DNA of 62,215 nucleotides from a bacterium (GTDB taxonomy: Bacteria > Pseudomonadota > Alphaproteobacteria > Rickettsiales > RI-342): NCBI GenBank assembly GCA_016124905.1, contig WGMV01000009.1, forward strand, positions 1 through 62,215. The letters run 5' to 3'. The notes beneath the pieces are model-generated. The model saw only the letters and a list, made by a program, of their open reading frames with translations. It was not told the DNA's origin and did not search any database. This document shows positions 746 through 62,215 of the stretch, one piece after another. Made by a program: the position numbers and the translations under genes. The number at the start of each line of letters is the position of its first letter. Position 1 is the first letter of the stretch.

Positions 746-746
746 G

Positions 747-1993: not shown

Positions 1994-2066
1994 GTGGTCG
2001 GCCTTTTGGGTCATATGTATGCAGGATACCATGCGAAAGGGATGAATCGGTGACAGGCTAATGAAA

Positions 2067-2087
2067 TTTAAGCGACTAAAGCTTAAA
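2067..2087. promoter_or_regulatory. Palindrome in divergent tadE/lysS region
   Basis: A perfect 7-bp inverted repeat, TTTAAGC and GCTTAAA, separated by exactly 7 bases, 45 bases upstream of the lysS ATG and about 75 bases upstream of the TadE-like start. The size and position suit a dimeric regulator's operator. The two TTAA cores are 11 apart, so it does not match the CtrA spacing of 7. Confidence 0.4.
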
Positions 2088-2131
2088 TATTTGGTAAAGA
2101 ACCGACTCTTTTTGAACTTTAGGCACAGCGA

Positions 2132-3730: not shown

Positions 3731-4596
3731 TGGTACAGGAAATCGCAGGTCTTTCTAGCCTGATGGGGCAGTATGATGCGCTGATCCTCGATCTCTGGGG
3801 CGTCATCCATGACGGCGAACAGCTATATCCCGGCGTGCGCGAATGCCTGGTGGAGCTGAACAAAGCTGGCAAAGCCGTGCAATTCCTGTCCAACGCCCCG
3901 CGCAAGGCGGCCAACACCAGCGCCGTGCTTGACCGTATGGGAATTGAGCAGAACCTGTACGACCGCATCCTGACATCGGGCCAACTGGCGTTTGAATGGT
4001 TGCGTGACGGGTCCATCAATACCGTTAAAGGAACCCATGCTCTGTTCATAGGGCCTGAGCGCGACCGTCATGTGATGGAAGGCACCGACATCACCGAAAC
4101 CAGCGTGGAAAAAGCCGATTTCGTGCTGAATGCAGGCCTGGATGACAACGACCTGGTAGTAGACCATTATGTGCCCCAGCTGGAAGCCGCGGCCAAACGC
4201 AAGCTCCCCATGCTCTGCATCAACCCCGACCGCGAGGTCATCAAGCAGAACGGCTTCATCTGGCCCTGCGCAGGCTGGCTCGCGGAGATTTACGAGCAGA
4301 TGAACGGCCACGTGACTTATATCGGCAAACCCTACCCTGGCGTTTATGCCGACTGCCTTGCCTATTGGCCGCGGCACGAAAAAAAGCGCATCCTGGCAGT
4401 GGGCGACAATCTCAGCACCGACATACGTGGCGCAAACGCCGCCGGCATCGATAGCCTGCTGATTGCAGGCGGCGTCATGAAAATCGCCTGCGGCCTGGCC
4501 GATACGGATGAAATCCCCTCGCTGACGGAGCTCGAGCCGTATATGCGCTCGCACAAAGCCTGGCCCGCCTACATTGCGCCGCGCTTTAACTGGTAA
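3730..4596 (+). CDS. HAD-superfamily class IIA hydrolase (TIGR01459 type)
   Basis: 288 residues, translationally coupled to lysS by a one-base overlap. The N-terminal motif DLWGVIHDG (residues 21-29) is the nucleophile motif of the alphaproteobacterial HAD-IIA family described as TIGR01459, with Trp where classic HAD phosphatases have the second Asp. Motif II is FLSNAPR, and the C-terminal motif IV region GDNLSTDIRGANAAG is intact. Expected to be a cytoplasmic small-molecule phosphatase; the substrate is unknown. The gene is followed by an 8-bp inverted repeat (gcatctgt at 4597-4604, acagatgc at 4635-4642) without a T tract. Confidence 0.85.
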   Translation: MVQEIAGLSSLMGQYDALILDLWGVIHDGEQLYPGVRECLVELNKAGKAVQFLSNAPRKAANTSAVLDRMGIEQNLYDRILTSGQLAFEWLRDGSINTVKGTHALFIGPERDRHVMEGTDITETSVEKADFVLNAGLDDNDLVVDHYVPQLEAAAKRKLPMLCINPDREVIKQNGFIWPCAGWLAEIYEQMNGHVTYIGKPYPGVYADCLAYWPRHEKKRILAVGDNLSTDIRGANAAGIDSLLIAGGVMKIACGLADTDEIPSLTELEPYMRSHKAWPAYIAPRFNW

Positions 4597-44783: not shown

Positions 44784-46916
44784 TTAAGCCGCGTCCCGGT
44801 CCAGCCAGTCGTTGCCCTTACTCACCACCAGATTGGCAAGCGCCACAACAACGGCACGGTCATAAAGCGTGCCCATATCATCCAACAGCTGACGAATCGT
44901 GTCATCGGTAGACATGGCCTTACGGAAGGCACGGTCGGACGTAAGGCTGATGAACGCATTGGCCACCGCCACAACTCGCGCCGCCATGAGTATCTTCTCA
45001 CCCTTCATGCCAAGCATCCCGCTGCCATCCCAGAACTCCTTACACTGACGGATCGTATCCGCCACCGGACCGTCGAATTCGATATCCTGAAGCAGATCGG
45101 CGGTAGCGATAATGCTCTCGCGTATCTTCTTCAGGTCGCCCGCCTTCAGTCTGCCTTCCTGTGTCAGCAGCGCCTCGGGAATGAACAGCTTTCCAAGGTT
45201 CATCAGACTGCCGGCGATCTCCGCCGTCTTTTGTGTGGTCTCATCCAGCTTCATGCTTTCCGCCAGCGCGCGTGCAAGCTTTGCCACCCGCACGGAATGA
45301 TCGGCCGCGAATTTGTCACGCTTGTCGATCAGCCCCATCAGGGTCGCCACCAGGCGCGTCATCAGGCGCTCGGCCTTATCCTTCTGCAGCGACAGCGCCG
45401 TGATATCCTGCTCCACCACCAGCACGCCTTTTTTGTGCGTTCCCTCCGGTGTGGGCAGATCATCCACGGGTATATAGGTCGTCTGCAAAACCTGAAGCCC
45501 CTTCTTGGCAATCAGCTGGTGTACATGCACATGGCTGGTGCGGGTGCTCAACGCATCCTCCATCCAGGGCTGATGACGCTCCGCCTCATGCGGGCCGATC
45601 ACCTGCACCAGATGCTTGCCGACAATGTCTTCCGCCTTTGTCTTCAACAAGGTGGCCAGGCGACGGTTGGCATAATGATAAATGCCTTCCTCGTCGCAGA
45701 TAAACATCACATCCGGCTCGGCATCCGTCACCACTTCCAGCAGCGCATGCTCATAGGATAGCTGCGCCGTCACACCCTTCAGGTCATGCGCCAGTTCCTC
45801 GGCGCGCTGCAGGCTCACCTTGCGCCACATCCACACCACACCCACGATCACGAGCATAAACACCACCGCCAGCATCAGCCCCATGCGCTGAATCTGCTGG
45901 TTCGCTTCATGCAGCGCATCCTTGGCCGGCAGGCTTGCCATTACCAGCCAGGGAACATTCGCAACCTTTTGCGCCACGGCCATCACCTTGGTGCCGCTCA
46001 TATCCACACCCGATACGAATCGGCCGGAATCCTGCAGCAACTTGGCCGGCACCAGATCAGGTGTGGTGGCATCCATATTTTTCAACGCCACGTCCTGGCC
46101 TTTATTTTCCAGCCACTCCACCTGTTTTGCCCCCTGGCGCACCAGCTGCAGCGTCACGTTTTTATATGGCTCCACGGTGGGAATATCGGTTTGCAGCAGG
46201 CTGGCATCGGCACGCTCAACCGCCACCAGCCAGCCGCGCTGGTCGGTATCCATGCGGGTGCCTTGCACGGCAAATACCGGTACGACAAACGCCATGGCCA
46301 AACGCCCGTCCGCCATCGGGTACAAATCGATGAAATGGCTTTTCGCCAGCGGCAGCTTGGCCAGCCTGTCCTTCAAGCCTCCCGCCTCCAACGGCGGCAT
46401 GGTGCGCGACATCACCAGCGGCTCACGCTTCATGTTCAGCAAGGCGACCCCACCCACCACCACCGGTGCCGATGACGGCGTGGGCGGCAATGCATAAGTC
46501 GGTTCAAACCCGCCGCGTGCGGCCGCCACCTGCACCAGCATGCGCAGCGAGGTGATTTCCGGCAGGCTGTAATCCGGCCCCTGTCCTTGCGCGGCAGCTT
46601 GCTCCACTTCCGAGAGATAAAGCGTCACCGTATCGTTATTGGCAATATCCTGCAGCACATCGAAGCGGCTTTGCAGGCGTGCGCGCAGGGCTTCCGCACG
46701 GCTGTCGGCCAGCACACGGAGCAAATGCTGTGCCTTGAGGCTCTCCTGCTCACGCTGGTGGCTACCCACTTGCCAGAGCACGGCGAAACCGGCCAGCATA
46801 ATAAACGCCAGCAGCATGGTAAGACTGCGGATACTGGCGGGGGTGCTTCTGGCGCCCGCACTCCCCTGTTCGGCATGGATCATGGTTTGGGTCGAAGCTT
46901 GCTGCTGGTCGGCCAT
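44784..46916 (-). CDS. Membrane sensor with PAS and degenerate HD-GYP domain
   Basis: 710 residues. Transmembrane helices at about 30-50 and 343-364 enclose a periplasmic sensor domain of CACHE type (about 51-340). The cytoplasmic part has a PAS domain (about 395-505) and a C-terminal HD-GYP-like domain (about 520-690). The HD-GYP motifs are all damaged: HDxGK reads MNLGK, HHExWDGSGYP reads QCKEFWDGSGML, and the Asp of VADVFDALTSDR is Asn in VANAFISLTSDR. No metal or c-di-GMP hydrolysis is therefore expected; it may only bind the nucleotide or signal by contact. Divergent from the LapG-like protease gene. Confidence 0.85.
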   Translation of the reverse strand: MADQQQASTQTMIHAEQGSAGARSTPASIRSLTMLLAFIMLAGFAVLWQVGSHQREQESLKAQHLLRVLADSRAEALRARLQSRFDVLQDIANNDTVTLYLSEVEQAAAQGQGPDYSLPEITSLRMLVQVAAARGGFEPTYALPPTPSSAPVVVGGVALLNMKREPLVMSRTMPPLEAGGLKDRLAKLPLAKSHFIDLYPMADGRLAMAFVVPVFAVQGTRMDTDQRGWLVAVERADASLLQTDIPTVEPYKNVTLQLVRQGAKQVEWLENKGQDVALKNMDATTPDLVPAKLLQDSGRFVSGVDMSGTKVMAVAQKVANVPWLVMASLPAKDALHEANQQIQRMGLMLAVVFMLVIVGVVWMWRKVSLQRAEELAHDLKGVTAQLSYEHALLEVVTDAEPDVMFICDEEGIYHYANRRLATLLKTKAEDIVGKHLVQVIGPHEAERHQPWMEDALSTRTSHVHVHQLIAKKGLQVLQTTYIPVDDLPTPEGTHKKGVLVVEQDITALSLQKDKAERLMTRLVATLMGLIDKRDKFAADHSVRVAKLARALAESMKLDETTQKTAEIAGSLMNLGKLFIPEALLTQEGRLKAGDLKKIRESIIATADLLQDIEFDGPVADTIRQCKEFWDGSGMLGMKGEKILMAARVVAVANAFISLTSDRAFRKAMSTDDTIRQLLDDMGTLYDRAVVVALANLVVSKGNDWLDRDAA

Positions 46917-47004: not shown

Positions 47005-47646
47005 ATGCTGAGGCAACCCAAACCATTTCATACTGCCGCCATAGCCCTTTTTTGGTCGCTTTGGCTTGCACTTGGCTTTGTGGCGGATGCATCGGCGTTT
47101 CCGGCTTATTTCAGCCCTCCCAAGCGGGAATCCGGCGATATCAGCATGTTCAAGAAATGGCTGCGCGTGTTGGATACGCACCCAAAAGACCTGAACAAGG
47201 CTCTGGAAAATTGCCCAAACGATCAATGCAAACCCGCCCAGTGGGAAGAATTCGTATCGAGCGCGGAATCGCTTGGCCGCGAATCCCAGATCTATGCAGT
47301 AAATGATGAAATGAACCGCTCCCCTTACATCACCGATCTGGTTAACTGGGGCATGGATGACTATTGGGAAACCCCGCTGCAATTCATCAACCGCAGCGGT
47401 GACTGCGAGGATTACGCCATCGCCAAATACATGACCCTGCGGGAACTGGGCTTCTCGCCCGAGGATATGCGCATCGTCATCCTGAAGGATTCCAATATCA
47501 ACATGATGCACGCCGTGCTGGTGGTCTCGTTCAATGGCCGGGCACTGGTGCTGGATAACTACATCCCCAAAGTCACCGAAAGCACCCGCATCAAGCATTA
47601 CCATCCAATTTACGCCATCAATGAAAACCACTGGTGGCGGCATTAA
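47005..47646 (+). CDS. Transglutaminase-like cysteine protease (BTLCP/LapG family)
   Basis: 213 residues with a signal peptide (cleavage near ADASA-F, residue 31). The catalytic triad is plain: C134 in SGDCEDYA, H169 in MMHAVL, D184 in VLDNY. This periplasmic family includes LapG, which clips surface adhesins under control of a c-di-GMP receptor. Two further Cys (70, 75) may form a disulfide. It lies between a dead HD-GYP membrane sensor and an AGCS symporter, and 2.4 kb from the giant adhesin operon, so a role in adhesin release is worth considering. Confidence 0.9.
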   Translation: MLRQPKPFHTAAIALFWSLWLALGFVADASAFPAYFSPPKRESGDISMFKKWLRVLDTHPKDLNKALENCPNDQCKPAQWEEFVSSAESLGRESQIYAVNDEMNRSPYITDLVNWGMDDYWETPLQFINRSGDCEDYAIAKYMTLRELGFSPEDMRIVILKDSNINMMHAVLVVSFNGRALVLDNYIPKVTESTRIKHYHPIYAINENHWWRH

Positions 47647-47663: not shown

Positions 47664-49154
47664 ATGAACCTGGCCGGCATGGGTGAGTCGCTGCTGCAGA
47701 TCATCAACAACGCCTTTTCAGCCTTTCTGTTCTACAAAATCGCAGGCTTTGATTTCATCGTGCTCTGGCTATTGGGCGCCGCCCTCTTCTTCACCCTGGC
47801 GCTGCGTTTTGTGAACATCCGACTTTTCGGCCATGCCATCGATATCGTTCGCGGCAAATACGACCAAGCCGCCGACAGCGGCGAGATCAACCATTTCCAG
47901 GCATTATGCGCCGCCATTTCCGGCACGGTGGGGCTTGGCTCCATCGCGGGCATTTCGGTGGCCGTGGCCGTGGGCGGGCCGGGCGCGGTGTTCTGGGTGG
48001 TGCTCGCGGGCCTGTTCGCCATGTCCAGCAAATATGCCGAGGTCGTCCTCAGCCTGTCCTACCGCCGCATCGACAATGCCACCAGCAAGGTCTATGGCGG
48101 CCCGTTCCATTACATCCGTCATGGCCTGGCGGAAATCAACATGCCCGTGTTCGGCAAATACCTGGCCATTGTCTTTGCTTTCTTCTGCATGGGCGGCGCC
48201 CTAGGTGGCGGCAACATGTTCCAGTCCAACCAGTCGGTCAAAATCCTGGTGAACACCTTCCACTCGCTGGAGGATTACAAATGGATACCCTCCCTTCTCA
48301 TCGCAGGCAGCGTGTTCCTCGTGCTTATCGGCAGCATCAAACGCGTGGCCAAGGTCACTAACATCGTCACGCCGCTTAAGGGCGTGCTTTATATCTGCTG
48401 CTGCCTGTTGATCATCGCCGTGAATGCAGGGGAGATTCCCGCTGCCCTGGCAAGCATCTTCAGCAATGCTTTCTCGGGTGAGGCCGCTGCGGGCGGACTT
48501 ATCGGTATGCTCGCCATTGCCTTCAAGCGCGCATCCTTTGCCAACGAGGCCGGCCTTGGTTCGGCCCCCATCACCCACGCCGCCGCCAAAACTACCGAGC
48601 CCGTACGCGAAGGCGCAGTAGCGCTGCTGGAACCTTTCTTTGCCGCCATCATCGCCCTGATGACGGGCTTAACCGTCGTGGTGACCAAGGCCTATGTCGG
48701 CGGCACACTGGAAGACGGCGTGCTGATCGCCGCCCGTGCGTTTGAGACCGTTGGCCCCTGGTTCCCCATCCTGCTGACCATCAACGTGCTGATCTTTGCC
48801 TATGGCTGCATCCTGGGCTGGAGCTATTATGGCGAAATGGCCTGGACCTATCTTTTCGGCCAGCGCGGCATCCGTCTTTATCAGCTGCTTTTCTGCACGG
48901 CGACTTTCTTCGGCGGCATCATGCATTTCGGCCTGGTGCTCGATTTTTCTGATTTGCTGATTCTCGGCATGGGTGTGCCCAATCTCATAGCCGTCTATCT
49001 GCTGACCCCCCGCATCATCAAAGAAACCAACAGTTACATCCAACGACTGAAAACCGGTGTATTCGACAAGCCTGCTCAGCCCGAACCCGCCCCGGCTTCC
49101 GCAACCACGGCCAGGCCGAAAAACAAAAAGAAACCGGCAAAAAAGCAGAAATAA
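47664..49154 (+). CDS. Sodium/alanine (AGCS) symporter
   Basis: 496 residues, polytopic inner membrane protein of the alanine/glycine:cation symporter family. Landmarks are ISGTVGLGSIAGISVAVAVGGPGAVFW, GGPFHYIRHGL, and GLGSAPITHAAAKTTEPVREG, which is the conserved family segment. A Pro/Lys-rich cytoplasmic tail (residues about 470-496, ending KKKPAKKQK) is extra. The ribosome site AGGGAGAA precedes the ATG, 17 bases after the protease stop, so the two are likely co-transcribed. Confidence 0.93.
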   Translation: MNLAGMGESLLQIINNAFSAFLFYKIAGFDFIVLWLLGAALFFTLALRFVNIRLFGHAIDIVRGKYDQAADSGEINHFQALCAAISGTVGLGSIAGISVAVAVGGPGAVFWVVLAGLFAMSSKYAEVVLSLSYRRIDNATSKVYGGPFHYIRHGLAEINMPVFGKYLAIVFAFFCMGGALGGGNMFQSNQSVKILVNTFHSLEDYKWIPSLLIAGSVFLVLIGSIKRVAKVTNIVTPLKGVLYICCCLLIIAVNAGEIPAALASIFSNAFSGEAAAGGLIGMLAIAFKRASFANEAGLGSAPITHAAAKTTEPVREGAVALLEPFFAAIIALMTGLTVVVTKAYVGGTLEDGVLIAARAFETVGPWFPILLTINVLIFAYGCILGWSYYGEMAWTYLFGQRGIRLYQLLFCTATFFGGIMHFGLVLDFSDLLILGMGVPNLIAVYLLTPRIIKETNSYIQRLKTGVFDKPAQPEPAPASATTARPKNKKKPAKKQK

Positions 49155-49202: not shown

Positions 49203-50009
49203 CTAAGCGGCCTTGCGTGTGTCCAGCGTGGCGAAACGGGCAAGCTTCGGCCAGTTACGGCTGGAAGCCAGCACCATGTAAATCAGGCCGAGATAGCCCT
49301 GCTCGCGCAGCTTCAGGATGGTCTCACCCGGCAGCTGGTTGAATTTGGCTTCGTCCAGAATCTTGAACCCGCTGAGGCGGATGGTTTTGCCCTGGCTGAC
49401 ATTCACCTGAATTCCCTGAAGCGACAGCAGATCATACTGCTTCAGCACTTCAACAAACCCACGCGTCAGCATGTGCTGCTGATGCACGGCCGTGCAGAAA
49501 TCCAGCGCGCCCTGCGTGAAAGCCGTCGGTTTCTTGTCGGCTTCAAAAAAGGCATTGCCCGGACCTTTGGCGGTAAAGCTTTCAGCAGCCTCATCCACGC
49601 ACAGCACCAGGCGCTTGCCGTTATCCACTTCCATCAGCACAAACGGATATTGGCGCACATAGGCCGGGATGTAATTGGCATCGTTCCACTGGCCTTTGTC
49701 GCTGACAAAGTAGTTGCTCTGCTCCAGGCCAAGCACCACCACCGGCAGCGCCGAGTCATCACCCGTGAAAACGATCGGGTAATAAAGGGCCGCTTCCGGC
49801 AGTTCCGCCAGCGTAATGGGCACGGAGTTGGTCTGCTGGGCGAAGTTGAAATTGCCGTCTTTCTTGAGACCGGCGGTGCCATGCACCTCAGCGTCAAGCG
49901 GACGGGGGTTCTTCAGGAAAAGCGGCAGACCGGTCTGGGCGGCTTCCTGTGCGGAAGCCGCTTTATCCGAACCAGCTTTACCATTGGAGGCTTTGGTCGT
50001 CTTGCTCAT
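49203..50009 (-). CDS. SapC family protein
   Basis: 268 residues. The SapC domain is clear from ALYYPIVFTGDDSALPVVVLGL, NYFVSDKGQWNDANYIPAYVRQYPF and the later TRGFVEVLKQYDLLS. SapC proteins are linked by name to S-layer or surface proteins but their biochemical role is not settled. The N-terminal 30 residues are Lys/Ala-rich and polar, no signal peptide. It starts nine bases after the adhesin stop (AAGGGGAACCC ribosome site), so it is translated from the same message and may aid secretion or surface fixing of the adhesin. Confidence 0.9.
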   Translation of the reverse strand: MSKTTKASNGKAGSDKAASAQEAAQTGLPLFLKNPRPLDAEVHGTAGLKKDGNFNFAQQTNSVPITLAELPEAALYYPIVFTGDDSALPVVVLGLEQSNYFVSDKGQWNDANYIPAYVRQYPFVLMEVDNGKRLVLCVDEAAESFTAKGPGNAFFEADKKPTAFTQGALDFCTAVHQQHMLTRGFVEVLKQYDLLSLQGIQVNVSQGKTIRLSGFKILDEAKFNQLPGETILKLREQGYLGLIYMVLASSRNWPKLARFATLDTRKAA

Positions 50010-50018
50010 GGGTTCCCC

Positions 50019-53000
50019 TTATTGGCTGACTTGGCAGGTGCCCATATTGTAAGCCGGGCTGAAGCCGGAGCTGAGGAAGCCCGCGGCGCAGCCGGAGCTG
50101 CCGCCTTGGTTTTCACCTTGCTGCGACTGGCCGCCCTGTGCGCCCGGACCAGCAGCCGGCGCGATGCCAGCCAGTTCCGTATCGCTCATACCTGCCACGT
50201 TGAATGAGTTAGGTGTAGCGGGCGGGGTGCTGCCATTCAAGCTCAGATTCACCTTAACCGGGGTGAAACCGAACGGCGCGTTGAAACCATTGGTCTCAAT
50301 GGTCTGACCGGCGATCGAGAAGATCGGCTCGGGCGACCTGTCGCGGAACAGTTGCTCCAGCAGGGAGAGGAAGAAGCTGAAACCCGACGGACCGGCTGCA
50401 GGCAGGCTGAAGATCTGGCCAACCGTGGACTCATCATCCTGGTCATGCAGCTTGGTCTCGATATAGGCGATCTGTGCAGGCGTAGCGGTGCCACCAAAGA
50501 TACCGTTGAAATAAACCCCGCGGGCATCAATCACTTGATTATCCATGAAGTTATTTTCCAGATCGATGAAGTAGCGGCTCTGGCCCTGGAACACGTTGTT
50601 CACACCGACAAACTGCAGGAACCCGTCTGCACCCTCAGCCACCAGGCCGTCCTGACCGCCGACAACGGTGTTGTCCTGCAGGTCCGTCTCGCTGTTGATC
50701 AGGTGAATGCCGCGCGTGGCGTTGGTAATGCGGTTGAAGCGCAGTACGGTGTTCTGGCTGTCATCGACATAGATGCCGTCGCTGGCCGTATCCACCACGT
50801 TGCTGCCAACCTGCAGACCGTCCGCACGCAGAGCATAGATACCCGCATCACCGCTGCCGGTAACCGTGTTGCTAAGCACCTGCGCGTTCGGCGTATCCGT
50901 CAGCTTGATGCCGTTTTCAGCGGAATCCGTCACCACGTTGCCTTCCACCAGCGCATTGTTGCTGCTGCCGGTGAAGAAGAAGCTCGGACCGGCAAAGAGC
51001 TGGAACACCTGGTCACTGCCACCTTCGCCGCTATCGTCACCCGGTACGGTTTCGGACTGAACGCCGCTGATGTCGATACCGTCTTCACCCGCGCCGGTGA
51101 TCGTGTTGCCACGCACCACCACATTATCGCTGGCAAAGATATGAATACCATCGCGGGCAACCTGGCCAAGCTCGCTGGTGCCGATTACGTTGCGCTCGGT
51201 TACCAGGCCGTCGGCATCGTATGCATTGATGCCATGCTGGCCAGCCGCGCCGATCGTGTTGTCAGACACCACGATGCCCACGCTGCCATCGCCGCCGAGG
51301 ATGAGCGGCATGATGGAGTCACCACCTTCACTGCCCATTTCATCGGCATAGGTGCTGGCAATCTCTACGCCGTCGCTGCCGACATTGTAGATGATATTGC
51401 GCAGAACCTGACCATAGCTGGCATTCTCAAGATGCACGCCGTCTTCGCCGATATCGCCGAAGGACTGGCCGCTGATGGTGTTGTCGGCAATCAGAATGCC
51501 GCCCACATTCGTGGCGCGAACGCCATTCTCCGTGATCGGGCTTTCCGACGTGCCGGTAATAACGTTGTCCGTCACTTCCACGCCATAGCTGGTGCCGTAA
51601 TAGTAGCCTTCGTAATCTTCTGAATAGAGGTTTTTGGCTGCCATCACATACCCGGCATCCTGCCACACATCCACGCCATCGCTACCCGCGCCGGTGATGG
51701 TGTTGCGGCGAATCTTGGCATAATCGCTGTTGCCGAGGTTCACGCCATCCACACCGGAATCGGTGATGATGTTGCGGCTGATACGGATATCATTGGTCTC
51801 GTAAGCGCGAACGCCATGAGTGCCGGAATCGCTGATATCGTTGCGGGCCACAACCGTATGCGTGCCGGAGGAGCCTTCGCCACCTTCGGACGAATCCTCC
51901 ATAAGGCCCATCGGCAGGTCATCCCAGTAAGTGCCGGAGTAGCTGATATCCACTCCATCATCGCCGGAGCCGGAGATGGTGTTGCGGAGCACGTGCACGC
52001 CGTCGCTGTAGGATACATGCACACCGTCTTCATTCGAGCCGGTGATGCTGTTGCCGCGCACGCGCAGCAGGTCGGCATGGTATGCCAACACGCCGTTATC
52101 GCCAGCACCGCGGATGGTGTTGTGGTCAACATCCACAGCGAAGCTGTCGTTGATTTCCACACCATTCTCGCCGGGACGGAAGATATCGTTGCGACGAACA
52201 TCGGTGTAATCGCTGTTATCCACATCGATACCATTGCCACCCGTGAAGGCGATACGGTTGCCATTAATGTCGGAGTTACGGCTGTCAGACAGCTCGATAC
52301 CGTTATCACCAACAAACGCGATGCGGTTGCGGTTGATGTCGGCATTGCGGCTGCCATCTACATCGATACCGTCATGCAGTGCGAAGACGATGAAGTTGTG
52401 GTTCACATCCACATTGCGGCTGTCATTCACATGGATACCGTCGCCAAGCACGAAAGCCACCACGTTGTTATCGATGTTGGCATCGCGGCTGTCGGATACT
52501 TCGATACCATTATCACCGGCAAACGCGATACGGTTGCGGCGGATGTCAGCACCACGGCTGTGATCCACGTCGATACCGTCACCTAGCACAAAGGCCACCA
52601 CGTTACCTTTCACGTCCACATAGCGGCTGTCCTCAACATGGATACCGTCGTTTCCAGCGAAGATCACGTCATTGCCGCGGATATCGCCGTAATCGGCATT
52701 GTCCACGTCGATGCCGTTATGGCCGGCAAACGCAACGCGGTTACCGATCACGTCCGCATTGAAGCTGTCGGACACTTCGATACCGTTGTGCAGAACGAAG
52801 CTGACACGGTTCTGGTTCACATCCGCAAAAGCGCTGCCTTCAACATCGATGCCATCATCGGCAGCACCGGTTACGGTGTTGCGTTTGATATCGGCAAACG
52901 CGCTGTCACGCACCTGAATGCCATCACCCAGCGTCAGGAATACATTATTGTCGTTCACATCGGCGGCAAAGCTGTTGCGCACGTCAATGCCGTCATCGCC

Positions 53001-56000
53001 GGTAAAGCCAACCGTGTTGCCATTCACATTGGCAAACCCGCTGCCTTCAACATAAATGCCGTCATGCAACGCGCCCATGACCGTGTTGTCGAGCACGTTT
53101 GCAAACCAGCTGTTGCTCACATGGATGCCATCGCCACCCACCAGCGCAACCGAGTTGTTGCGTACGGTGTTGAAGATGCCGTCCTGAACTTCGATACCGT
53201 TATTAACCGCACCGATCACGGTGTTGTTGGCAACCGTCACGAAGCTGCTCGGATCAACGAAGATACCGTTATCGCCCACCAGGAACACATTGTTCCCATT
53301 GATATAGGCGAAGCTGGAATCGCGTAGGTCGATACCGTTGCCAAGCACCAGGGCAACCGTGTTGTCCACGATACGGGACAGCCAGCTGTTGCTCACCTTG
53401 ATGCCGTTTTCGCCAGCGCCAACCACGGTGTTGTCATGGATGTTGGCCAGCAGGCTGCCATCCACATCGATACCGTCATGACCAACCAGGGTCACGCCGT
53501 TACCGGCAACGGTGCTGAACCAGCTGTTGCTCACATTGATACCATCACCCAGGGCAAGGGTAACCGTGTTGTCCACGATACGGGACAGCCAGCTGTTGCT
53601 CACCTTGATGCCGTTTTCGCCAGCGCCCGCAACGGTGTTGTCATGAATGTTGGCCAGCAGGCTGCCATTCACGTCGATGCCGTCTTGAGCAGCCAGGAAC
53701 ACGCCGTTACCGGCAATGGTACTGAACCAGCTGTTATTGACATGGATACCATCGCCACCGAGAGCCAGGGTAACCGTGTTGCCAAGCACGCTGTTCAGAA
53801 TGCCGCCATCCACTGCAATGCCATGGCTACCGGTGCCGGTAACTTGGTTGCCGCTGATGGTGGTCAGACTACTGCCGCTCAGTTCGATGCCTTCTTCGCC
53901 GGCGCCCGTCACGGTATTGTCAGCAATGGAGCTCAGCAGCGTGCCGGTCACTTCGATACCATCCTGGAAGGACAGGGTAACGAGGTTGTTGCTCACATCG
54001 AGGAACCAGTTGTTATCCGCATGGATGCCGTCGCCGCCCAGAGCCAGGGTAACCGTGTTGCCCTTGATCTTGTTCAGCAAACCGCCATTCAGCAGAATGC
54101 CGTGGCTGCCGGTACCGGTAACCGTGTTGCCGATAATGCCGACCAGGCTGCTGCCGCTCACGTCAATGCCTTCTTCACCGGCACCCGTTACGGTGTTGTT
54201 GCCAATCAGGCTGCCGTTAGAGCCAAGCACCTCGATACCGTCACCCGTCACGAGCGTGACCAGGTTATCGCTGATATTGGCAAGCTGGCTGTTATTCACA
54301 TGGATACCGTCGCCACCCAGAGCCAGCGTTACATTATTGCCGGTGATCTGGTTCAGCAATCCGCCATCCACCAGGATACCATGGCTGGCCGTACCGGTAA
54401 CATGGTTGCCGCTGATGGTCGTCAGGCTGCTGTCGCTCAGGTCAATGCCTTCTTCGCCGGCACCGGTCACCGTGTTGTCGGTGATGCTGCTGCCGCTGGA
54501 GCTGATGACTTCAACGCCATCCAGGCCAACGAGCGTAACATTGTTGCCGCCGATATGACTGCCCAGGCTGCCATAAACATGGATACCATCGCCTTCGGCA
54601 CCCGTCACGGTGTTGCCAGTCACGTTGGCCAGCGCGCTTTGGTCGATGTTGATGCCATCGCCGCCAACCAGGCTCACGCTGTTGTTGCGCACCGTGTTGG
54701 AGAGGCCGTACTGCACCTGGATACCATGGCTGGCAGCACCGGTAACGGTGTTGTTTTCCACCACCACGAAGCTGCTCGGATCCACAAAGATGCCGACATC
54801 GCCAGCACCGGTCACCGTGTTGGTGCCGATATGGGCAAGGTTTGAATCGCGTAGGTCGATGCCATCATCACCGGCAAGGGTGATACCGTTATTATCCACC
54901 AGCACACCGTTGGTGTTGCTGACGAAGATACCGTCATTGCCAACCCAGGTTACGGTGTTGCCGCTGACGTTGGCGCGCGCACCGGCCAGGCCGCCTGCGC
55001 TGTTGTTGATATGGATACCGTCCACCACGGCGCCTTTGGACAGACCGGCCGCGATGATCTTGTTACCCGTCACCACGATGCCGCTGCGCAGCTGGCCAAG
55101 GATGGCATCAAAACCGCCACCGATGATTGCGCCGCTGTTATCGGCATAGATGCCATGGTTACCGGCGCCTTCGGAACCGATGCCAAGGCCGCTCTTCACC
55201 GTGTTGTTGGTAATGCGTGCTTCGCGGTTATTCACCACATGGATGCCGTCATGACCAGCGCCCTGGGCGTTCAGCAGACCGCCCTGGATGGTATTGTTAT
55301 CGACGCTGACCTGACGGCCGCCTTCGATATTGATGCCATCCACAACCGCACCATAGTTGATGCCGTCGCCGATCGTGTTCAGGCTGACATCCGTGCTGTT
55401 GCTGTTTTGGACGTAAATACCGTGGTTACCAACGCGGTTGATCGCGTTGCTGTTGATATGCGCATTGTTGTTGGACACCAGCTGGATGCCGTTTGCACCC
55501 GCAGCAATACCACCTGCGGTGATGCCGGAGAACGTAGCACCGGCATTGCCGCCTTTGATCTGGTTGTGGTGGATGTTTGCACCCGTGCTGCCGGTCACGA
55601 AGATACCGTTAGCGCCAGCGCCTTTGCCACCGGCACCCAGACCGGTCAGACCAACGGTGCCGTTGCCGCCTTTGATCTGGTTGTTGGAGATCACAACATC
55701 CTTGTTGCCATCCACATGGATACCGTCACGCACGGCGCCATCGGCACCCATAGTGTTACCGGAACCATTGCCGCCGGCGATCGTGTTGTTGTCGATCGTG
55801 GCTTCTTTGCCGCCCAGAATGCTGATACCGTCCAGACCGGCGGAAGTGATGCTGTTGAGCTTCACCTGAACATAGTCGCTCGGGTTTACATAAATGCCGT
55901 TCAGGCCGGTTTTGCTGATGATGTTGCTCAGCGCTTCGGCGTAGTTGCTGCCATTGATGTAGATACCGTTACGGACCGTGTTGCTGATCTCGTTGCTGTT

Positions 56001-59000
56001 CACATGCGCACGGACGGAACCGTTCACATTGATGCCGTCGCCCGTGATGTTGTTCGCACCGCCGGTCAGGCCAACCTTATTGCTTTGGATCACAACATCG
56101 GCGCTGCTGTTCATCTCGATACCGTCGCCACCCGCACCGTTGATGGTGTTGGACTTCACTTCATCCACATTGGCGGAACCGTAGATACCATGACGCGCAA
56201 CATTCTTAACCTTGTTGCTGTTGATCAGGATAACACCGGTATTGTTGGCAGAACCGTAATTGATGGCCCCACCGGAATTGATACCGTCGCCTTTGGTGCC
56301 GTCGATATCGTTGCCGGTGATGGTCAGGCCATCGGTAGCTTCCACATGGATGCCGCTCAACCAGCCCGTGCCGCTGTTTTCCAGGCCTGCACCCTTGATA
56401 GTGTTGTTGGTGATCTGAACATTATCGACATTGCCGCCATAGATGCCCAGACGCGCAACGTCCTGAATGTTGTTGCGGTCGATCTTCACATTAGCGGATT
56501 CAAGCACACCCACGCCGGATGCACCGGTGGAATCGCTGATGGCGTTACGAAGGATCTGGGCATTGTCGCTGTACCAGACATTCACCCCATCCCAGCCGGA
56601 ACCGCTGATGGTGTTGCCATCGCTGGAACCGGAACCACCCACCGTGGCGCCTGCGCTGTTCCACAGCGCAATGCCGTTATCGTGGCTGTTGCTCACCTTG
56701 TTTTTCTTGATGGTCACACCGGCGGAGCCATTGGCCTCGATCCCGTCATCGCCGGAACCGGAAACCGTGTTGCCCTGGATCACGTTCGTGCCCGTCAGGC
56801 CGCTTACATACACGCCATCGCCCAGAGAACCGGTGATGGAGTTGTTCCACACGTTGGAGCCCGCGCTGTTTTCAACGCGCACACCCGTGCCAGAACCCGT
56901 GATGAAGTTGCGGTCAGCGGCATTGGCGCCACCTACCGTCACGTTATCCGCGCTCAGAACATACACGCCGTTCGCACCACCCGTGATGGTGTTGCCGATC
57001 ACCGCGCTGTTCGGGCTCGGGTCGATGAACACGCCGCTGCCCACCACATTGACAATCTCGTTGCCGGTAACGGTGGAGCTGGCGGAATCCACGATGGAAA
57101 CACCATCGCTGCCAATGTTGTTGGCGCCACCCGTGAGGCCGATCTTGTTCTTTTTCACCGTGGCATTGCTGCTGGCGTAAACGGAGATAGCATCGCCCGC
57201 GACGTTATTGATCGTGTTTTTCTCGATCCAAGGCGTCTGGCTGCCGGTGACATAAATACCGTCATGCAGCGTCGCACCGGTCACCGTGTTGTCATGGATG
57301 TTCAGCGTGCCGGTATGACCGCCAATATACATGCCATACTGGTAGCTGTTGGTGATGGTGTTGGTGGCAATCTCGGTGTTGCTGCTGTTCAGCACGCCAA
57401 CGCCGGAAGCACCCTGCGTGTTGCTGATGGTATTGCTAAGGATTTTTGCACCGGTGCTGTCTTGCAGGTTCACCCCGTCCCAAGCAGCGCCCGTCACCGT
57501 GTTGGTATAGATCACGGCATTGGTCGTCCCGGAAACTTCGATGCCGTTATAACCATCGCTGCCGGAATAGCCGCCACCGACCGTGCCGGTGCCGTTGATG
57601 TTGTTGTAGGTGATTTGAACAACACCGGTCGATCCATCAACGTCGATCCCGTCATTGCCGGAATTATTGACCTTGTTGTTGGTGATGTTGGTGGTGCCGC
57701 TGAGGTTGGTCACGTAGATACCATCCACACCAGAACCGCTGATAGAGTTATTCTGAACCGTCACAGTATTGCTATTGCGGGCATAGATGCCATCAAGCGC
57801 CGCACCGGTGATCGTGTTGTCATCGATAGTGATGCCGGTCTCATTGCTTTCGACATAAATACCATGCCAGGCCGTGGTGCCGTTGATGGTGTTGCCAATG
57901 ATATCGGTATCGGTGCCATAGGAAATCCACATGCCACCCCAGTTATTGTTCAGCGTGTTACCGCTGATGGTGTTGCCGCTGCCGCCGCCCAGCGCGAACG
58001 CGGAACGGAAGGAATTGGCAATCACGTTGCCGGAAGCAATCGCATTGGTCGCATCAGAGATACTGATGCCATCCCAGCCAGCGCCCGTCACCGTGTTGCC
58101 GGTGATGTGATGGCCATTGCCGCCATGCACTTCAATGGCATTCAGCTGGAACGGATCAATCGCGCCAGTGCCGGAGCCGTTTATAACGTTATTCTTGATG
58201 TCCAGGTTGTTGGAAGCCGTGGCATACACAGCCTGGTATTTGGAATTATCGATCTTGTTGTTATCCAGCACCGTGCTGTGGCTGTTCTGGACGTAAATGC
58301 CTACGCCAGCGCCATCGATGTAGTTACGGTCACCGGCATTGGCGCCGCCCACCGTCACGTTGTCGCTGTCCAGCACCACCACGCCGTACGCGCCGCCGGT
58401 GATAGTGTTGTTGGTCACCGACGTATTCGGGCTCGGATCTACCCAGATACCGGTATAGCCGAAATTATCGACCGCGTTGCCGCTCACATTCGCGCCCGCA
58501 GTGTTGATCAGCGTGATACCGTTGCCATTCACATGGTCGCTGACGATCGGGCTGAAGAAGATGCTGTGGCCGATATGGTTGTTGGTCACATTCAGCGTGC
58601 CGCTAACATTCTCGGAACGGATGCCGTCACCGCCAACATAGTTGACCCAGTTATCATTGATTGTGTTGGTGCCATAGAGGCCAGCCACCAGAATGCCGTT
58701 GGCATTGCTGTTGCCCAGATGGTTGCCAATGATGTTCAGGCCCGTACCGCCATAGGAATAAATGGCGCCATACATCGGCACATTGCCAATCACGTTGAAG
58801 CGCAGGTAGCTGTTGGTCAGGTTCTCGGTATACATACCGACGCGCTCAACACCGTCGATCACGTTGCCGAGCACATCGAAGTTATAAACGGAACCGCCTT
58901 CGGCATCCACGCGGATCCCATCCCAGCCGGAATTGGTGATCACGTTGCCCTCGCCGACACCCGTGCCGCCGATGGTCACATCATGGCTGCGCAGCGCCTG

Positions 59001-61946
59001 GATACCGCTGCCCACATCCCATGCCGGGCTGTGCGTTTCGGTGATCTTGTTACCTTTGATGTCGATATGGTCGGAATCGGCGATCAGGATACCATCGCCA
59101 ACGATGTTGTTCGTGCCCTGAGACACGCCGAATTCGTTCTGGCCGATGAAGTTGCTCAGGATCTTGGATCCGGTGCTGCTGAACAGCGAAATCGCGTTGC
59201 CAACCAGGTTATGCAGCACGTTGTTCTTGATCTGCGTATCGCCCGTGGCGCCCGTTACCACAATGCCTTTGGCACCGTGGTGAATGACGTTGCCGTCAAT
59301 CGTCGTGGCGGAAGCATCCAGCACATCGATACCGGTCGTAACGGCACCCGTGATGGTGTTGTGATCGATGCTGTTACTGGCGCTGCCACCAACAATGCCC
59401 CAACCCACATAGATGGGGTCCAGACCGCCATCGAGGGAAATAGCCGTATCGCTGCCGGCAATGTTGTTACCGGAAATCACCGCATGGCTGGTGCTCACCA
59501 CCGCAACGCCGATGTCGTGGCCGCTGCCGGTCACGGTGTTGTTCGTAACCTGCACGCCGTCAGCCGCATCGAATACCAGGATGCTGGAAGCCGACCAGCT
59601 GTCCGGCGTATAGCCGATCTCGCTGATGCTGTTGCCGGAGATGGTGCCCGTGGCTCCATAACCCAGCTGAATGCCGTTTTGGGCGATGTAATCCACCGCG
59701 CCGGCACCCGTGATGGTGTTGTTGGTGATGTTGGCGGTCAGGAAATCACCATTGGTCGTGATACCGTTCTTTTGGAAATCCTTAACCACGCTGTTGCTTA
59801 CATTGAGCGTACGGGCCACGCCGTCATCGTTACCGGCATAAATGCCGTTGCCGCCTTGCACGCCGCTATTGCCCGAATGGCGAACGCCCTTGACTTCAAC
59901 ATGGTCAACCGTACCGCCGGCATTGCCATACGCAATACCCGTGAAGCTGCCCGGGGCAGCCGCGCCGTTCTGGTTGCCGTCAACCGTCAGGTTGCTGATA
60001 TTAACGTTATTTGCGCCTTCCACACCGATGATGGCCGTGCGCGGCGTGCCGAAAACGGTCACGTTATTGGCAAGCGCGCCCGGAGCAACGATGTTGGTCA
60101 CGCCAACACCGGAACCAACCAGGTTCAGGTTTTTGCCGATTTTTACTTGCTCGGCATAATTACCGGCGGCGACATTCACCGTCGCACCCGTACCGGCAAT
60201 GTGAACACCCTGCTGGATTTTCGCAGCATTGGATTTCACGTTCACCGTGGAGGAGTTGCCGCTCAGCTTGGTGGAATCCAGCAGCGTGCCAACATTGTTA
60301 AAAATCTGGCCGTTCAGGTTGGTGGTCGGCGCATTTACGAACACATTGCCCGTACCCATGGTCAGGTTACGGTTGAAATTCACCACATCGGCCGACAGGG
60401 TCAGGTTATGCGTCGTCGTCGTCAGGCCGGAGGTGGAAACATTGATATCCCCATTGCCCAGCAGCAGACCGGCCAGATAACCGGCCAGAGGACCGTATTC
60501 GGAATAATCCGCCCGCGTACCCACATCGATGAAGCTGTCGGAATCCAGCGTCACGTTGGCGTTTTTCAACGCATTGGCCAGTGCGCTGGCGGAAACGATG
60601 TTACGGTTTTCAACCGAGTTCCACGGCCAGATGTTCAAGGAACCGCTATGGATAATGATGTAGGAAGGATCCAGCAGCAGGTCACCGGCAATGCCGCTTT
60701 CGGCATTCAGGTTCACATCACCGAGGAACACAAAGCTTTCTTTACCGGAAACTTCAGCGAAACCGCCTTTGCCAGCACCAACGCCCTGGGCGGAGATGCT
60801 GCCCATGAAGCCCGTCGTATCATTGGACCAGACGATCACGCGACCACCATCGCCATTCACCGTGGCATCGGATTTCAGGGTCGCGCCCTCTTCAATCACC
60901 GTGCTGGTGGCATTGCGCTCAGGGCCTTTACCCTGGAAGTTGCCGCCAACAAGAATTTCACCGCCGCCCAGCTCACCGGAAGTATCAATGGTCGCACCGG
61001 ATTTCACAGCAACATCGCCGCCCAGCACTTTAACGCTGCCGCCCTGGCCACCAACACCTTTGGCAGACACATTGCCGGAGACTTCCGCTTTGCCACCATT
61101 ACCGGCATCGATCACAATCTCACCGCCGACATATTGCATGCGGTTGGCACGCACTACGCCGCTTACGTTGATGCTTTGGGAAACTACATCGCTGGCTTCG
61201 TTGGCCGTAATTTGAACCTTACCGCCATCGGCTTCGATCACGCCATCCATCTTCACGCTACCGGCCTTCTGGTCCGGCACAACGAAGTTGATCAGCTTGT
61301 CGCCATAGAAATCGAGCGTGTAGGTTTCGCCAGCAGCCAGAGCGACCTTACCCAGGTTCGCCTGAATCACGCCGCTGTTTTCCACACCAGGCGCAACCAG
61401 GGCGACAAGGCCGCCCTCTTTGGCCGTGATGGTACCTTGGTTGATGACCTTGGCGCCCGCCTGGCCCGGCTGGGAGAATACATAACGCCCGGCGTTAAAA
61501 TCTTTGTTGGTAATGTTGGCGGTCGATGCCAGCAGGCCACCCACGTCAATTTTGGCGGTATTGCTGAACATCACACCGCTTTCGTTGATGAGCCACACGT
61601 TACCGTTGGCTTTCAGCGCACCCTGAAACACCGTAACCTGACCGTTGGTTACGCGGTTAAGCGCAATGGCGCTCGCGCCAGGTTGGTAGAACTGGACCGT
61701 TTCAGCAGGCGTGGTGTTGAAGCTGCGCCAATTGATGATGGTCTTGTTGCTGTTCTGGTGAATATCCGTCTTCACCGCGGAAGGATGGCTGATGGTCGCA
61801 CTGCCCGACACCACATGACCGCCCTGCGGGCCCGCCATCGCAACCCCCGAAACGCCCGCGACCGCCATGGCGGCGGAAATCGCCGTGCTGCGGCGAAGCG
61901 TGTTGGACCAGCGGAAGCTTTGCTTGGCTTTGCGTGCGGTCATCAT
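50019..61946 (-). CDS. Giant secreted beta-helix adhesin (filamentous haemagglutinin N-terminus)
   Basis: 3975 residues, encoded in 11.9 kb. An extended signal peptide (about 1-39, ending AMA-G) is followed by a TPS-type haemagglutinin domain (about 40-290; SGSATISHPSAVKTDIHQ, NSNKTIINWRSFN, NVWLINESGVMFSN). From about 560 to 3770 comes a very long right-handed parallel beta-helix of PbH1/NosD type with Asn ladders (NNTITG, GNTVTG); the central part has near-exact 23-residue rungs. The last 200 residues are non-repetitive and hold the only Cys pair near the end (SSGCAAG, GTCQVSQ). ATG at 61946 or 61943 after GGAAGGG. A TpsB/FhaC outer-membrane partner is not in the window. Surface adhesin or biofilm role inferred from family. 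Confidence 0.9.
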   Translation of the reverse strand: MMTARKAKQSFRWSNTLRRSTAISAAMAVAGVSGVAMAGPQGGHVVSGSATISHPSAVKTDIHQNSNKTIINWRSFNTTPAETVQFYQPGASAIALNRVTNGQVTVFQGALKANGNVWLINESGVMFSNTAKIDVGGLLASTANITNKDFNAGRYVFSQPGQAGAKVINQGTITAKEGGLVALVAPGVENSGVIQANLGKVALAAGETYTLDFYGDKLINFVVPDQKAGSVKMDGVIEADGGKVQITANEASDVVSQSINVSGVVRANRMQYVGGEIVIDAGNGGKAEVSGNVSAKGVGGQGGSVKVLGGDVAVKSGATIDTSGELGGGEILVGGNFQGKGPERNATSTVIEEGATLKSDATVNGDGGRVIVWSNDTTGFMGSISAQGVGAGKGGFAEVSGKESFVFLGDVNLNAESGIAGDLLLDPSYIIIHSGSLNIWPWNSVENRNIVSASALANALKNANVTLDSDSFIDVGTRADYSEYGPLAGYLAGLLLGNGDINVSTSGLTTTTHNLTLSADVVNFNRNLTMGTGNVFVNAPTTNLNGQIFNNVGTLLDSTKLSGNSSTVNVKSNAAKIQQGVHIAGTGATVNVAAGNYAEQVKIGKNLNLVGSGVGVTNIVAPGALANNVTVFGTPRTAIIGVEGANNVNISNLTVDGNQNGAAAPGSFTGIAYGNAGGTVDHVEVKGVRHSGNSGVQGGNGIYAGNDDGVARTLNVSNSVVKDFQKNGITTNGDFLTANITNNTITGAGAVDYIAQNGIQLGYGATGTISGNSISEIGYTPDSWSASSILVFDAADGVQVTNNTVTGSGHDIGVAVVSTSHAVISGNNIAGSDTAISLDGGLDPIYVGWGIVGGSASNSIDHNTITGAVTTGIDVLDASATTIDGNVIHHGAKGIVVTGATGDTQIKNNVLHNLVGNAISLFSSTGSKILSNFIGQNEFGVSQGTNNIVGDGILIADSDHIDIKGNKITETHSPAWDVGSGIQALRSHDVTIGGTGVGEGNVITNSGWDGIRVDAEGGSVYNFDVLGNVIDGVERVGMYTENLTNSYLRFNVIGNVPMYGAIYSYGGTGLNIIGNHLGNSNANGILVAGLYGTNTINDNWVNYVGGDGIRSENVSGTLNVTNNHIGHSIFFSPIVSDHVNGNGITLINTAGANVSGNAVDNFGYTGIWVDPSPNTSVTNNTITGGAYGVVVLDSDNVTVGGANAGDRNYIDGAGVGIYVQNSHSTVLDNNKIDNSKYQAVYATASNNLDIKNNVINGSGTGAIDPFQLNAIEVHGGNGHHITGNTVTGAGWDGISISDATNAIASGNVIANSFRSAFALGGGSGNTISGNTLNNNWGGMWISYGTDTDIIGNTINGTTAWHGIYVESNETGITIDDNTITGAALDGIYARNSNTVTVQNNSISGSGVDGIYVTNLSGTTNITNNKVNNSGNDGIDVDGSTGVVQITYNNINGTGTVGGGYSGSDGYNGIEVSGTTNAVIYTNTVTGAAWDGVNLQDSTGAKILSNTISNTQGASGVGVLNSSNTEIATNTITNSYQYGMYIGGHTGTLNIHDNTVTGATLHDGIYVTGSQTPWIEKNTINNVAGDAISVYASSNATVKKNKIGLTGGANNIGSDGVSIVDSASSTVTGNEIVNVVGSGVFIDPSPNSAVIGNTITGGANGVYVLSADNVTVGGANAADRNFITGSGTGVRVENSAGSNVWNNSITGSLGDGVYVSGLTGTNVIQGNTVSGSGDDGIEANGSAGVTIKKNKVSNSHDNGIALWNSAGATVGGSGSSDGNTISGSGWDGVNVWYSDNAQILRNAISDSTGASGVGVLESANVKIDRNNIQDVARLGIYGGNVDNVQITNNTIKGAGLENSGTGWLSGIHVEATDGLTITGNDIDGTKGDGINSGGAINYGSANNTGVILINSNKVKNVARHGIYGSANVDEVKSNTINGAGGDGIEMNSSADVVIQSNKVGLTGGANNITGDGINVNGSVRAHVNSNEISNTVRNGIYINGSNYAEALSNIISKTGLNGIYVNPSDYVQVKLNSITSAGLDGISILGGKEATIDNNTIAGGNGSGNTMGADGAVRDGIHVDGNKDVVISNNQIKGGNGTVGLTGLGAGGKGAGANGIFVTGSTGANIHHNQIKGGNAGATFSGITAGGIAAGANGIQLVSNNNAHINSNAINRVGNHGIYVQNSNSTDVSLNTIGDGINYGAVVDGINIEGGRQVSVDNNTIQGGLLNAQGAGHDGIHVVNNREARITNNTVKSGLGIGSEGAGNHGIYADNSGAIIGGGFDAILGQLRSGIVVTGNKIIAAGLSKGAVVDGIHINNSAGGLAGARANVSGNTVTWVGNDGIFVSNTNGVLVDNNGITLAGDDGIDLRDSNLAHIGTNTVTGAGDVGIFVDPSSFVVVENNTVTGAASHGIQVQYGLSNTVRNNSVSLVGGDGINIDQSALANVTGNTVTGAEGDGIHVYGSLGSHIGGNNVTLVGLDGVEVISSSGSSITDNTVTGAGEEGIDLSDSSLTTISGNHVTGTASHGILVDGGLLNQITGNNVTLALGGDGIHVNNSQLANISDNLVTLVTGDGIEVLGSNGSLIGNNTVTGAGEEGIDVSGSSLVGIIGNTVTGTGSHGILLNGGLLNKIKGNTVTLALGGDGIHADNNWFLDVSNNLVTLSFQDGIEVTGTLLSSIADNTVTGAGEEGIELSGSSLTTISGNQVTGTGSHGIAVDGGILNSVLGNTVTLALGGDGIHVNNSWFSTIAGNGVFLAAQDGIDVNGSLLANIHDNTVAGAGENGIKVSNSWLSRIVDNTVTLALGDGINVSNSWFSTVAGNGVTLVGHDGIDVDGSLLANIHDNTVVGAGENGIKVSNSWLSRIVDNTVALVLGNGIDLRDSSFAYINGNNVFLVGDNGIFVDPSSFVTVANNTVIGAVNNGIEVQDGIFNTVRNNSVALVGGDGIHVSNSWFANVLDNTVMGALHDGIYVEGSGFANVNGNTVGFTGDDGIDVRNSFAADVNDNNVFLTLGDGIQVRDSAFADIKRNTVTGAADDGIDVEGSAFADVNQNRVSFVLHNGIEVSDSFNADVIGNRVAFAGHNGIDVDNADYGDIRGNDVIFAGNDGIHVEDSRYVDVKGNVVAFVLGDGIDVDHSRGADIRRNRIAFAGDNGIEVSDSRDANIDNNVVAFVLGDGIHVNDSRNVDVNHNFIVFALHDGIDVDGSRNADINRNRIAFVGDNGIELSDSRNSDINGNRIAFTGGNGIDVDNSDYTDVRRNDIFRPGENGVEINDSFAVDVDHNTIRGAGDNGVLAYHADLLRVRGNSITGSNEDGVHVSYSDGVHVLRNTISGSGDDGVDISYSGTYWDDLPMGLMEDSSEGGEGSSGTHTVVARNDISDSGTHGVRAYETNDIRISRNIITDSGVDGVNLGNSDYAKIRRNTITGAGSDGVDVWQDAGYVMAAKNLYSEDYEGYYYGTSYGVEVTDNVITGTSESPITENGVRATNVGGILIADNTISGQSFGDIGEDGVHLENASYGQVLRNIIYNVGSDGVEIASTYADEMGSEGGDSIMPLILGGDGSVGIVVSDNTIGAAGQHGINAYDADGLVTERNVIGTSELGQVARDGIHIFASDNVVVRGNTITGAGEDGIDISGVQSETVPGDDSGEGGSDQVFQLFAGPSFFFTGSSNNALVEGNVVTDSAENGIKLTDTPNAQVLSNTVTGSGDAGIYALRADGLQVGSNVVDTASDGIYVDDSQNTVLRFNRITNATRGIHLINSETDLQDNTVVGGQDGLVAEGADGFLQFVGVNNVFQGQSRYFIDLENNFMDNQVIDARGVYFNGIFGGTATPAQIAYIETKLHDQDDESTVGQIFSLPAAGPSGFSFFLSLLEQLFRDRSPEPIFSIAGQTIETNGFNAPFGFTPVKVNLSLNGSTPPATPNSFNVAGMSDTELAGIAPAAGPGAQGGQSQQGENQGGSSGCAAGFLSSGFSPAYNMGTCQVSQ
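53340..53753 (-). repeat. Two 207-bp repeats in the adhesin
   Basis: A three-rung, 69-residue unit occurs twice in a row, each ending NGIKVSNSWLSRIVDNTV. The anchor gttgtccacgatacgggaca is at 53361 and 53568, exactly 207 apart. The first unit in protein order overlaps the last rungs of the 279-bp series. Confidence 0.8.
53619..54455 (-). repeat. Three 279-bp super-repeats in the adhesin
   Basis: Three successive copies of a four-rung, 93-residue unit that begins EEGI(D/E)(L/V)S, then HGI, DGIHx and DGI(E/D)V rungs. The same DNA anchor (coding EEGI) occurs at about 53884, 54163 and 54442, exactly 279 apart. The copies are close in sequence at protein and DNA level. Confidence 0.8.
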
Positions 61947-62000
61947 GTGTAAGTACCCTTCCTGCGGATTGATCTGAATTTACTAAAAATTGACGTTACA

Positions 62001-62091: not shown

Positions 62092-62215
62092 ATACACTCG
62101 GGGGTCGTCGCCATCCTGGCCTTGGGCGCACGGCTCCACGCCGCGCTCCAGGCAGCCGAGGAACTGGCCGGCATGGGGCTTTCCGCCACCGTCGCCGATG
62201 CACGCTTCGCCAAGC
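62092..62215 (+). pseudogene. dxs: Partial dxs (1-deoxyxylulose-5-phosphate synthase) lacking its N-terminal part
   Basis: A plus-strand frame open from 62005 to the window edge codes GVVAILALGARLHAALQAAE and then GMGLSATVADARFAK, which is the start of the C-terminal transketolase-like domain of Dxs (around residue 500 of about 640). The preceding 500 residues are not here: upstream is only the adhesin promoter region, and the residues just before (EAFVKAEIHS) do not match the family. No suitable start codon. So this is either a truncated remnant or an artefactual join; the end continues beyond the window. Confidence 0.6.

Follow-up and report, generated by a model that had tools for sequence, protein, structure and literature searches.

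Genes and features of the locus

The window (the whole stretch of DNA that was analysed, 62,215 nucleotides) contains a gene for a giant TpsA-type surface protein, hereafter called the adhesin. It is followed by genes for a SapC family protein, a symporter, a LapG-family protease and a DvhD-like receptor. The features are collected in Table 1. The protease and receptor genes are located 2-5 kb from the adhesin gene.

Table 1. Features of the adhesin locus and their positions in the window
Feature	Position	Strand	Basis or remark
TpsA-type giant surface protein	50019..61946	-	3975 aa, pI 4.4
TPS secretion domain	61098..61832	-	PF05860 108.8 bits; TIGR01901 E 1e-18
Right-handed beta-helix, about 123-132 rungs, residues ~690-3800	50547..59879	-	PF13229 E 6e-241; NosD E 2e-174; cyclic-profile count
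Highly regular stretch, 44 consecutive rungs of 22-24 aa, residues about 2340-3332	about 51885..54929	-	core spacing; AF2
C-terminal retention module (cap, linker, LapG-type site, hook)	50028..50606	-	alignment; profile matches in 20/175 genomes of the order
Second PAAG, farther upstream; may or may not be used	50391..50402	-	[T/A/P]AAG consensus
PAAG, predicted LapG cleavage site	50148..50159	-	[T/A/P]AAG consensus
Cysteine hook, last 23 aa	50022..50090	-	Cys 3953 and 3971, 18 residues apart
SapC family protein (PF07277)	49203..50009	-	9 bp after the adhesin
AGCS-type sodium/alanine symporter	47664..49154	+	assigned by eye from sequence
LapG-family periplasmic cysteine protease (PF06035, BTLCP)	47005..47646	+	solved LapG 4u65 E 3e-18, 4fgo E 8e-18
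DvhD-like inner-membrane receptor, dCache-PAS-HD-GYP, HD changed to MN	44784..46916	-	sequence and structure matches to DvhD

The N-terminus of the adhesin is signal-like, ending in ...GVAMA as judged by eye, and lies ahead of the TPS domain. The PF05860 score was obtained in the genome search; a Pfam hmmscan of the adhesin alone returned no TPS domain, probably as a filter effect of the repeats. The matches to PF05860 and TIGR01901 show that the haemagglutinin-type secretion domain, which the first-pass annotation had placed before the helix, is real. The N-terminal 560 aa are much less regular than the 44-rung stretch. On the opposite strand, a 2313-aa frame (window 55011-61952, +) is open in the codon register of the adhesin. 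It stays open because TTA, CTA and TCA account for only six adhesin codons, and it is probably a coding shadow.

The beta-helix and its rungs

Along the protein, 44 successive copies of the G-I/V rung core are spaced 22-24 aa apart, and the longest run at exactly 23 aa comprises 27 rungs. When the same protein was shuffled 500 times, the maxima were 4 and 3, respectively. The near-exact 23-residue rungs, about 44 of them, that had been noticed in the sequence beforehand are thus far above the level of shuffled sequences. The 36 exact-23 rungs that were tabulated all share one Gly and one Asn, and their I/V positions alternate as expected of inward-facing strand residues. For residues 690-3800, a cyclic 23-position profile counted 124-127 rungs, and arithmetic from spacing or length gave 123-132. 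Therefore, the proposal that the helix exceeds 100 rungs holds. The first ~1,800 aa of the helix are much less regular than the rest.

Twelve rungs of the regular part (residues 2986-3261) were folded by AlphaFold2 with a four-row alignment; the irregular two thirds of the helix lie outside this model. The predicted structure was a right-handed beta-helix with strands throughout (pLDDT 97.2, pTM 0.93), so that the solenoid which the first-pass annotation had asked to be checked by structure prediction was obtained. The nearest solved folds are the right-handed beta-helices AlgG, AlgE4 and RbmB. A beta-helix rises by ~0.48 nm per rung, and about 125 rungs would therefore give a rod of about 60 nm. 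This predicted length is close to that reported for CdrA, 70 nm (PMC7616799). Rungs of such regularity lend themselves as a template for stiff protein rods.

The fibre is acidic, with a pI of 4.2 in the regular part. At an E-value threshold of 0.001, Pfam gave only Beta_helix and NosD matches in the adhesin and no RTX or other calcium repeat, although filters may hide weak matches, as the TPS domain was also dropped. Since no known calcium repeat was found and an acidic fibre need not bind calcium, the earlier description of the fibre as calcium-friendly was not upheld. Two further candidates were rejected. The match to the copper protein NosD (TIGR04247) reached 248 bits, below the cut-off of 300, and lies within a 3975-aa TPS protein. 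The other was a TxT face for ice binding: TVT occurs often in one part of the array, but the most regular part has lost it.

Origin of the array and comparison with relatives

When each codon was compared with that one rung further on, positions 1, 2 and 3 agreed in 54, 58 and 45% of cases, and the codons used for the same amino acid in adjacent rungs were barely more alike than chance (0.60 versus 0.51 expected). The 69-bp period that had been described thus stands as a regularity of the protein, but not of the DNA. Since adjacent rungs are alike in protein and not much in DNA, it is selection on the protein that maintains the register. A recent tandem expansion of the whole array was rejected, because codon similarity is near chance outside one 3-rung block. 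In this block, codons 2722-2803 and 2792-2872 share 87% DNA identity; it looks like a recent duplication and is the only block that looks recent.

The proteins of relatives have conserved ends and differing middles, with lengths of 467-4014 aa and a rung period of 22 or 23. The highest number of consecutive strict rungs among them is 19 (L091), and none is as regular as the window protein. At least two relatives have a PbH1-type TPS protein comparable in size (L091, 4014 aa; L009, 3887 aa). Thus, the architecture, for which a search in other genomes had been proposed, is not unique, but the rungs of these relatives are less regular. These comparisons suggest that the ends are conserved while the rod between them is free to change in length and in the type of its rungs.

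The C-terminal hook and the predicted cleavage motif

The adhesin has exactly two cysteines, and both are located behind the PAAG motif. A disulfide between them would close a loop at the very end of the protein. To follow this tail, a profile was prepared from the last ~180 aa of the window protein and of four relatives. In 12 of the 19 proteins with the module, the two cysteines are likewise 18 residues apart.

The sequence [T/A/P]AAG is the LapG/DvhG consensus as given in PMC13090378. It was detected in the last 150 aa of 18 of the 19 hook proteins retrieved; one hook protein (L043) has PQAG in its place. In total, 31 sites were found in these C-terminal segments, against 1.1 expected from composition-preserving shuffles, and the remaining 33,829 residues of the 19 proteins contain four. 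The distance from the last site to the first hook cysteine is 7-41 residues. Of nine TPS proteins without the module, eight had no such site.

Known TPS proteins offer parallels for both elements. CdrA is held in CdrB by a C-terminal cysteine hook (PMC7616799, PMC11898600), HMW1 and HxuA are anchored by a C-terminal disulfide (PMC5422565), and CdrA and LapG are the precedent for the release of a TPS adhesin by LapG (PMC4694147). As in FhaB and CdiA, a TPS domain is combined with a long beta-helical shaft. However, the shaft of the window protein is built of PbH1 rungs, and no C-terminal prodomain or polymorphic toxin of the FhaB/CdiA type was found in it; the tail is a hook module conserved across 20 genomes. 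The first-pass annotation was correct that the layout is not that of a typical FhaB. A CDI toxin tail was rejected on the same ground, since the tail is conserved and not variable.

The protease and the DvhD-like receptor

The LapG-family protease possesses a signal-like N-terminal segment and the motifs of a C-H-D triad (GDCEDYA, HAVL and LVLDN).

For the receptor, the solved structure that matched best by sequence was the PAS/HD-GYP part of DvhD (E 6e-38). An AlphaFold model of the receptor had a pLDDT of 81 and a pTM of 0.46, the domains being better than their arrangement. The closest solved structures were all three DvhD structures of Desulfovibrio, which were the best match in every domain: HD-GYP with Z 26.8, PAS/HD-GYP with Z 26.6 and the periplasmic dCache with Z 19.5 (next dCache, 15.9). 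The HD motif of the receptor reads MN, and MN or LN was found in the homologues of the order where it was readable. The HH positions read C and K. Thus, the metal ligands are lost as in DvhD. According to PMC13090378, the HD and HH ligands of DvhD are SQ and MN (SQ being its HD motif), the protein does not hydrolyse c-di-GMP, and it restrains DvhG when c-di-GMP is high.

We infer that the receptor binds c-di-GMP, although the contacts are only partly retained. Among the DvhD contacts named by that source, L577 and R650 are kept in the alignment, Y523 and Y652 are replaced by F and M646 by L, Y621 is lost, and K582 is probably shifted or lost. The genome of the window encodes GGDEF proteins (five matches); the two weakest of the five are PAS-GGDEF-EAL proteins without the periplasmic part of LapD. 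LapD had also been considered as the receptor; these two do not have its shape, but a LapD may be encoded among the other three.

Co-occurrence in the order and the class

We surveyed 175 genomes of the order. The receptor was found in 33, LapG in 39, TPS proteins in 62, SapC in 24 and the hook module in 20. LapG was present in 19 of the 20 hook genomes versus 20 of the 155 others. In all 26 cases in which the receptor and protease genes lie on the same contig, they adjoin. Fisher p-values for key pairs were 1e-13 and smaller; the genomes are related, so these values overstate independence. An alphaproteobacterial MAG (L009) also carries a hook TpsA together with LapG.

In 13 of 20 genomes, the SapC gene comes immediately after that of the hook adhesin. 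A single cluster of protease, receptor, TpsB, hook TpsA and SapC was found in L037, L093 and L099, and protease, TpsB and TpsA are together in L042. The gene order of L093, receptor (-), protease (+), SapC (-), TpsA (-) and TpsB (-), equals that of the window apart from the symporter gene. Since the symporter is absent between protease and SapC in this syntenic locus, it is probably an unrelated neighbour. SapC was also seen beside LapG in G096 and G103.

Six members of the order (G018, G020, G024, G030, G038 and G078) have a LapG-family protease and TPS or hook genes without a DvhD homologue. DvhD is therefore not obligatory, and another receptor may control LapG in these genomes. Of 20 loci belonging to other families of the class, 18 had receptor and protease close together. 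No TPS gene was found near the pair in the 20 more distant class genomes, within the 7-20 kb of DNA that was read around it. Within our sample, the association with TPS thus seems to be a feature of this order.

Proposed mechanism and alternative readings

The hook tail, the cleavage motif and the LapG and DvhD-like genes, which were missing from the first-pass annotation, likely give the mechanism of the locus. We propose, with a probability of roughly 0.7, that the adhesin is a hooked TPS fibre which is releasable by LapG and is under c-di-GMP control through a DvhD-type receptor. The components of this scheme (secretion domain, helix, hook, motif, protease family and triad, receptor architecture with lost metal ligands, and neighbourhood) come from sequence, structure prediction or genome statistics. 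The adhesin would be exported N-end first through a TpsB pore and would fold outside the cell into the beta-helix rod. Its last residues would stay in the periplasm, where the two cysteines would form a disulfide loop. In this proposal, the fibre stays attached because the loop cannot pass the pore. The periplasmic protease could then cut at the PAAG just before the hook and free the rod. The receptor, an inner-membrane protein with a catalytically dead HD-GYP domain, would sense c-di-GMP and restrain the protease when its level is high; when the level falls, the fibre would be shed. Our confidence is higher for the hook and the protease than for the direction in which the receptor acts. The adhesive function is suggested by the class of the protein.

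It is also conceivable that the fibre is hooked and cut by LapG, but that the HD-GYP protein encoded nearby is a sensor for something else, with the protease under some other control or none. In G018, G020 and G078 a hook TpsA and LapG occur without a DvhD homologue, and the contacts Y621 and probably K582 differ in the receptor. However, receptor and protease genes adjoin in 26/26 same-contig cases in the order and are close together in 18/20 loci from other families of the class, DvhD is the best match for all three receptor domains, and the receptor lacks the metal ligands just as DvhD does. We therefore regard an unrelated sensor as unlikely.

A permanently tethered adhesin, in which the hook holds the fibre as in HMW1 and the PAAG merely belongs to a flexible linker, is very unlikely. 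HMW1 and HxuA do use a C-terminal disulfide anchor (PMC5422565), and the motif sits within a linker rich in Gly, Ala and Pro; yet shuffling yields 1.1 sites where 31 are seen, and LapG accompanies the hook in 19/20 genomes. The idea that the protein is a secreted polysaccharide-active beta-helix (epimerase- or lyase-like) or a carbohydrate matrix protein is highly improbable: the nearest rung folds are AlgG, AlgE4 and RbmB, but proteins of one fold need not have the same activity, no rung position other than the structural G and N is invariant among the 36 exact-23 rungs tabulated, and the retention module implies surface display.

The preferred reading, a hooked and LapG-releasable fibre, combines two systems of which both halves are already known, CdrA/LapG/LapD and DvhD/DvhG. 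With CdrA/CdrB and LapG/LapD of Pseudomonas aeruginosa, the locus shares a TPS adhesin, a C-terminal cysteine hook, a LapG-type site near the C-terminus and the LapG protease. Cleavage at this site is predicted here, and the assignment to the CdrA type, which depends on that prediction, is a likeness and not proof of a CdrA system. The stalk of CdrA consists of MBG2 repeats (PMC7616799), whereas that of the window adhesin is a PbH1/NosD-type beta-helix; furthermore, the protease gene is here beside the adhesin and the candidate receptor is DvhD-like instead of LapD. With the DvhD/DvhG/DvhA system of Desulfovibrio vulgaris, it shares a gene for a dCache-PAS-dead HD-GYP protein adjoining one for a LapG-like protease, and the motif [T/A/P]AAG. 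However, DvhA is type 1 secreted with an N-terminal retention domain, a substrate type that the TPS adhesin with its C-terminal hook does not match, and DvhG has a membrane anchor and a long linker, whereas the window protease has a signal-like N-terminus. Strictly speaking, the locus does not qualify as a Dvh system, since its adhesin is not type 1 secreted. HMW1 and HxuA of Haemophilus influenzae are likewise TPS proteins with a C-terminal disulfide loop, anchored in TpsB, but their passengers differ and LapG release is not described in the sources consulted.

These results suggest that CdrA-type hooked TPS adhesins and a Dvh-type c-di-GMP receptor are wired together in this order. In the part of the literature that could be searched, we found no account of a TPS adhesin under DvhD-type control. 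An odd repeat protein thereby becomes a testable circuit that would decide when the cell holds on and when it lets go. Whether SapC is a further dedicated component, beside the dead-HD-GYP receptor, the LapG-type protease and the hooked giant TPS fibres, is a more tentative matter, to which we give somewhat less than an even chance. If so, SapC would be linked to adhesin display, and the uncharacterised SapC family (PF07277) would gain a process to belong to. Searches for SapC with TPS, and for PF07277 or "SapC family" by name, gave no matching papers in the searchable literature.

TpsB and the ends of the assembly

The contig of the window (C9) ends 269 bp upstream of the adhesin start, and no TpsB gene was seen beside the adhesin in this assembly. 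The genome encodes two TpsB proteins, one on C1 and one on C3. The former is followed by another giant TpsA, which continues on C19. The latter is most like the TpsB proteins of hook-type loci (35-44%) and runs off its contig end. By synteny, the adhesin and the C3 TpsB may be neighbours across an assembly break, but C9 ends in a dxs-like frame. This frame lies at window positions 62095-62215 (+), where synteny predicts TpsB. It was rejected as a real neighbour, since it is 5'-truncated and unique in the genome; a chimeric assembly join is possible.

Five further TPS proteins (L029-L033) were observed in the 2.36 Mb genome of the window (G000), on contigs C3, C15, C19, C11 and C8. One of them, at least 3988 aa long, reaches no stop codon within its contig. 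At the other contig end, window positions 2-124 consist of an imperfect 9/18-bp tandem repeat (CGGCGTCGT).
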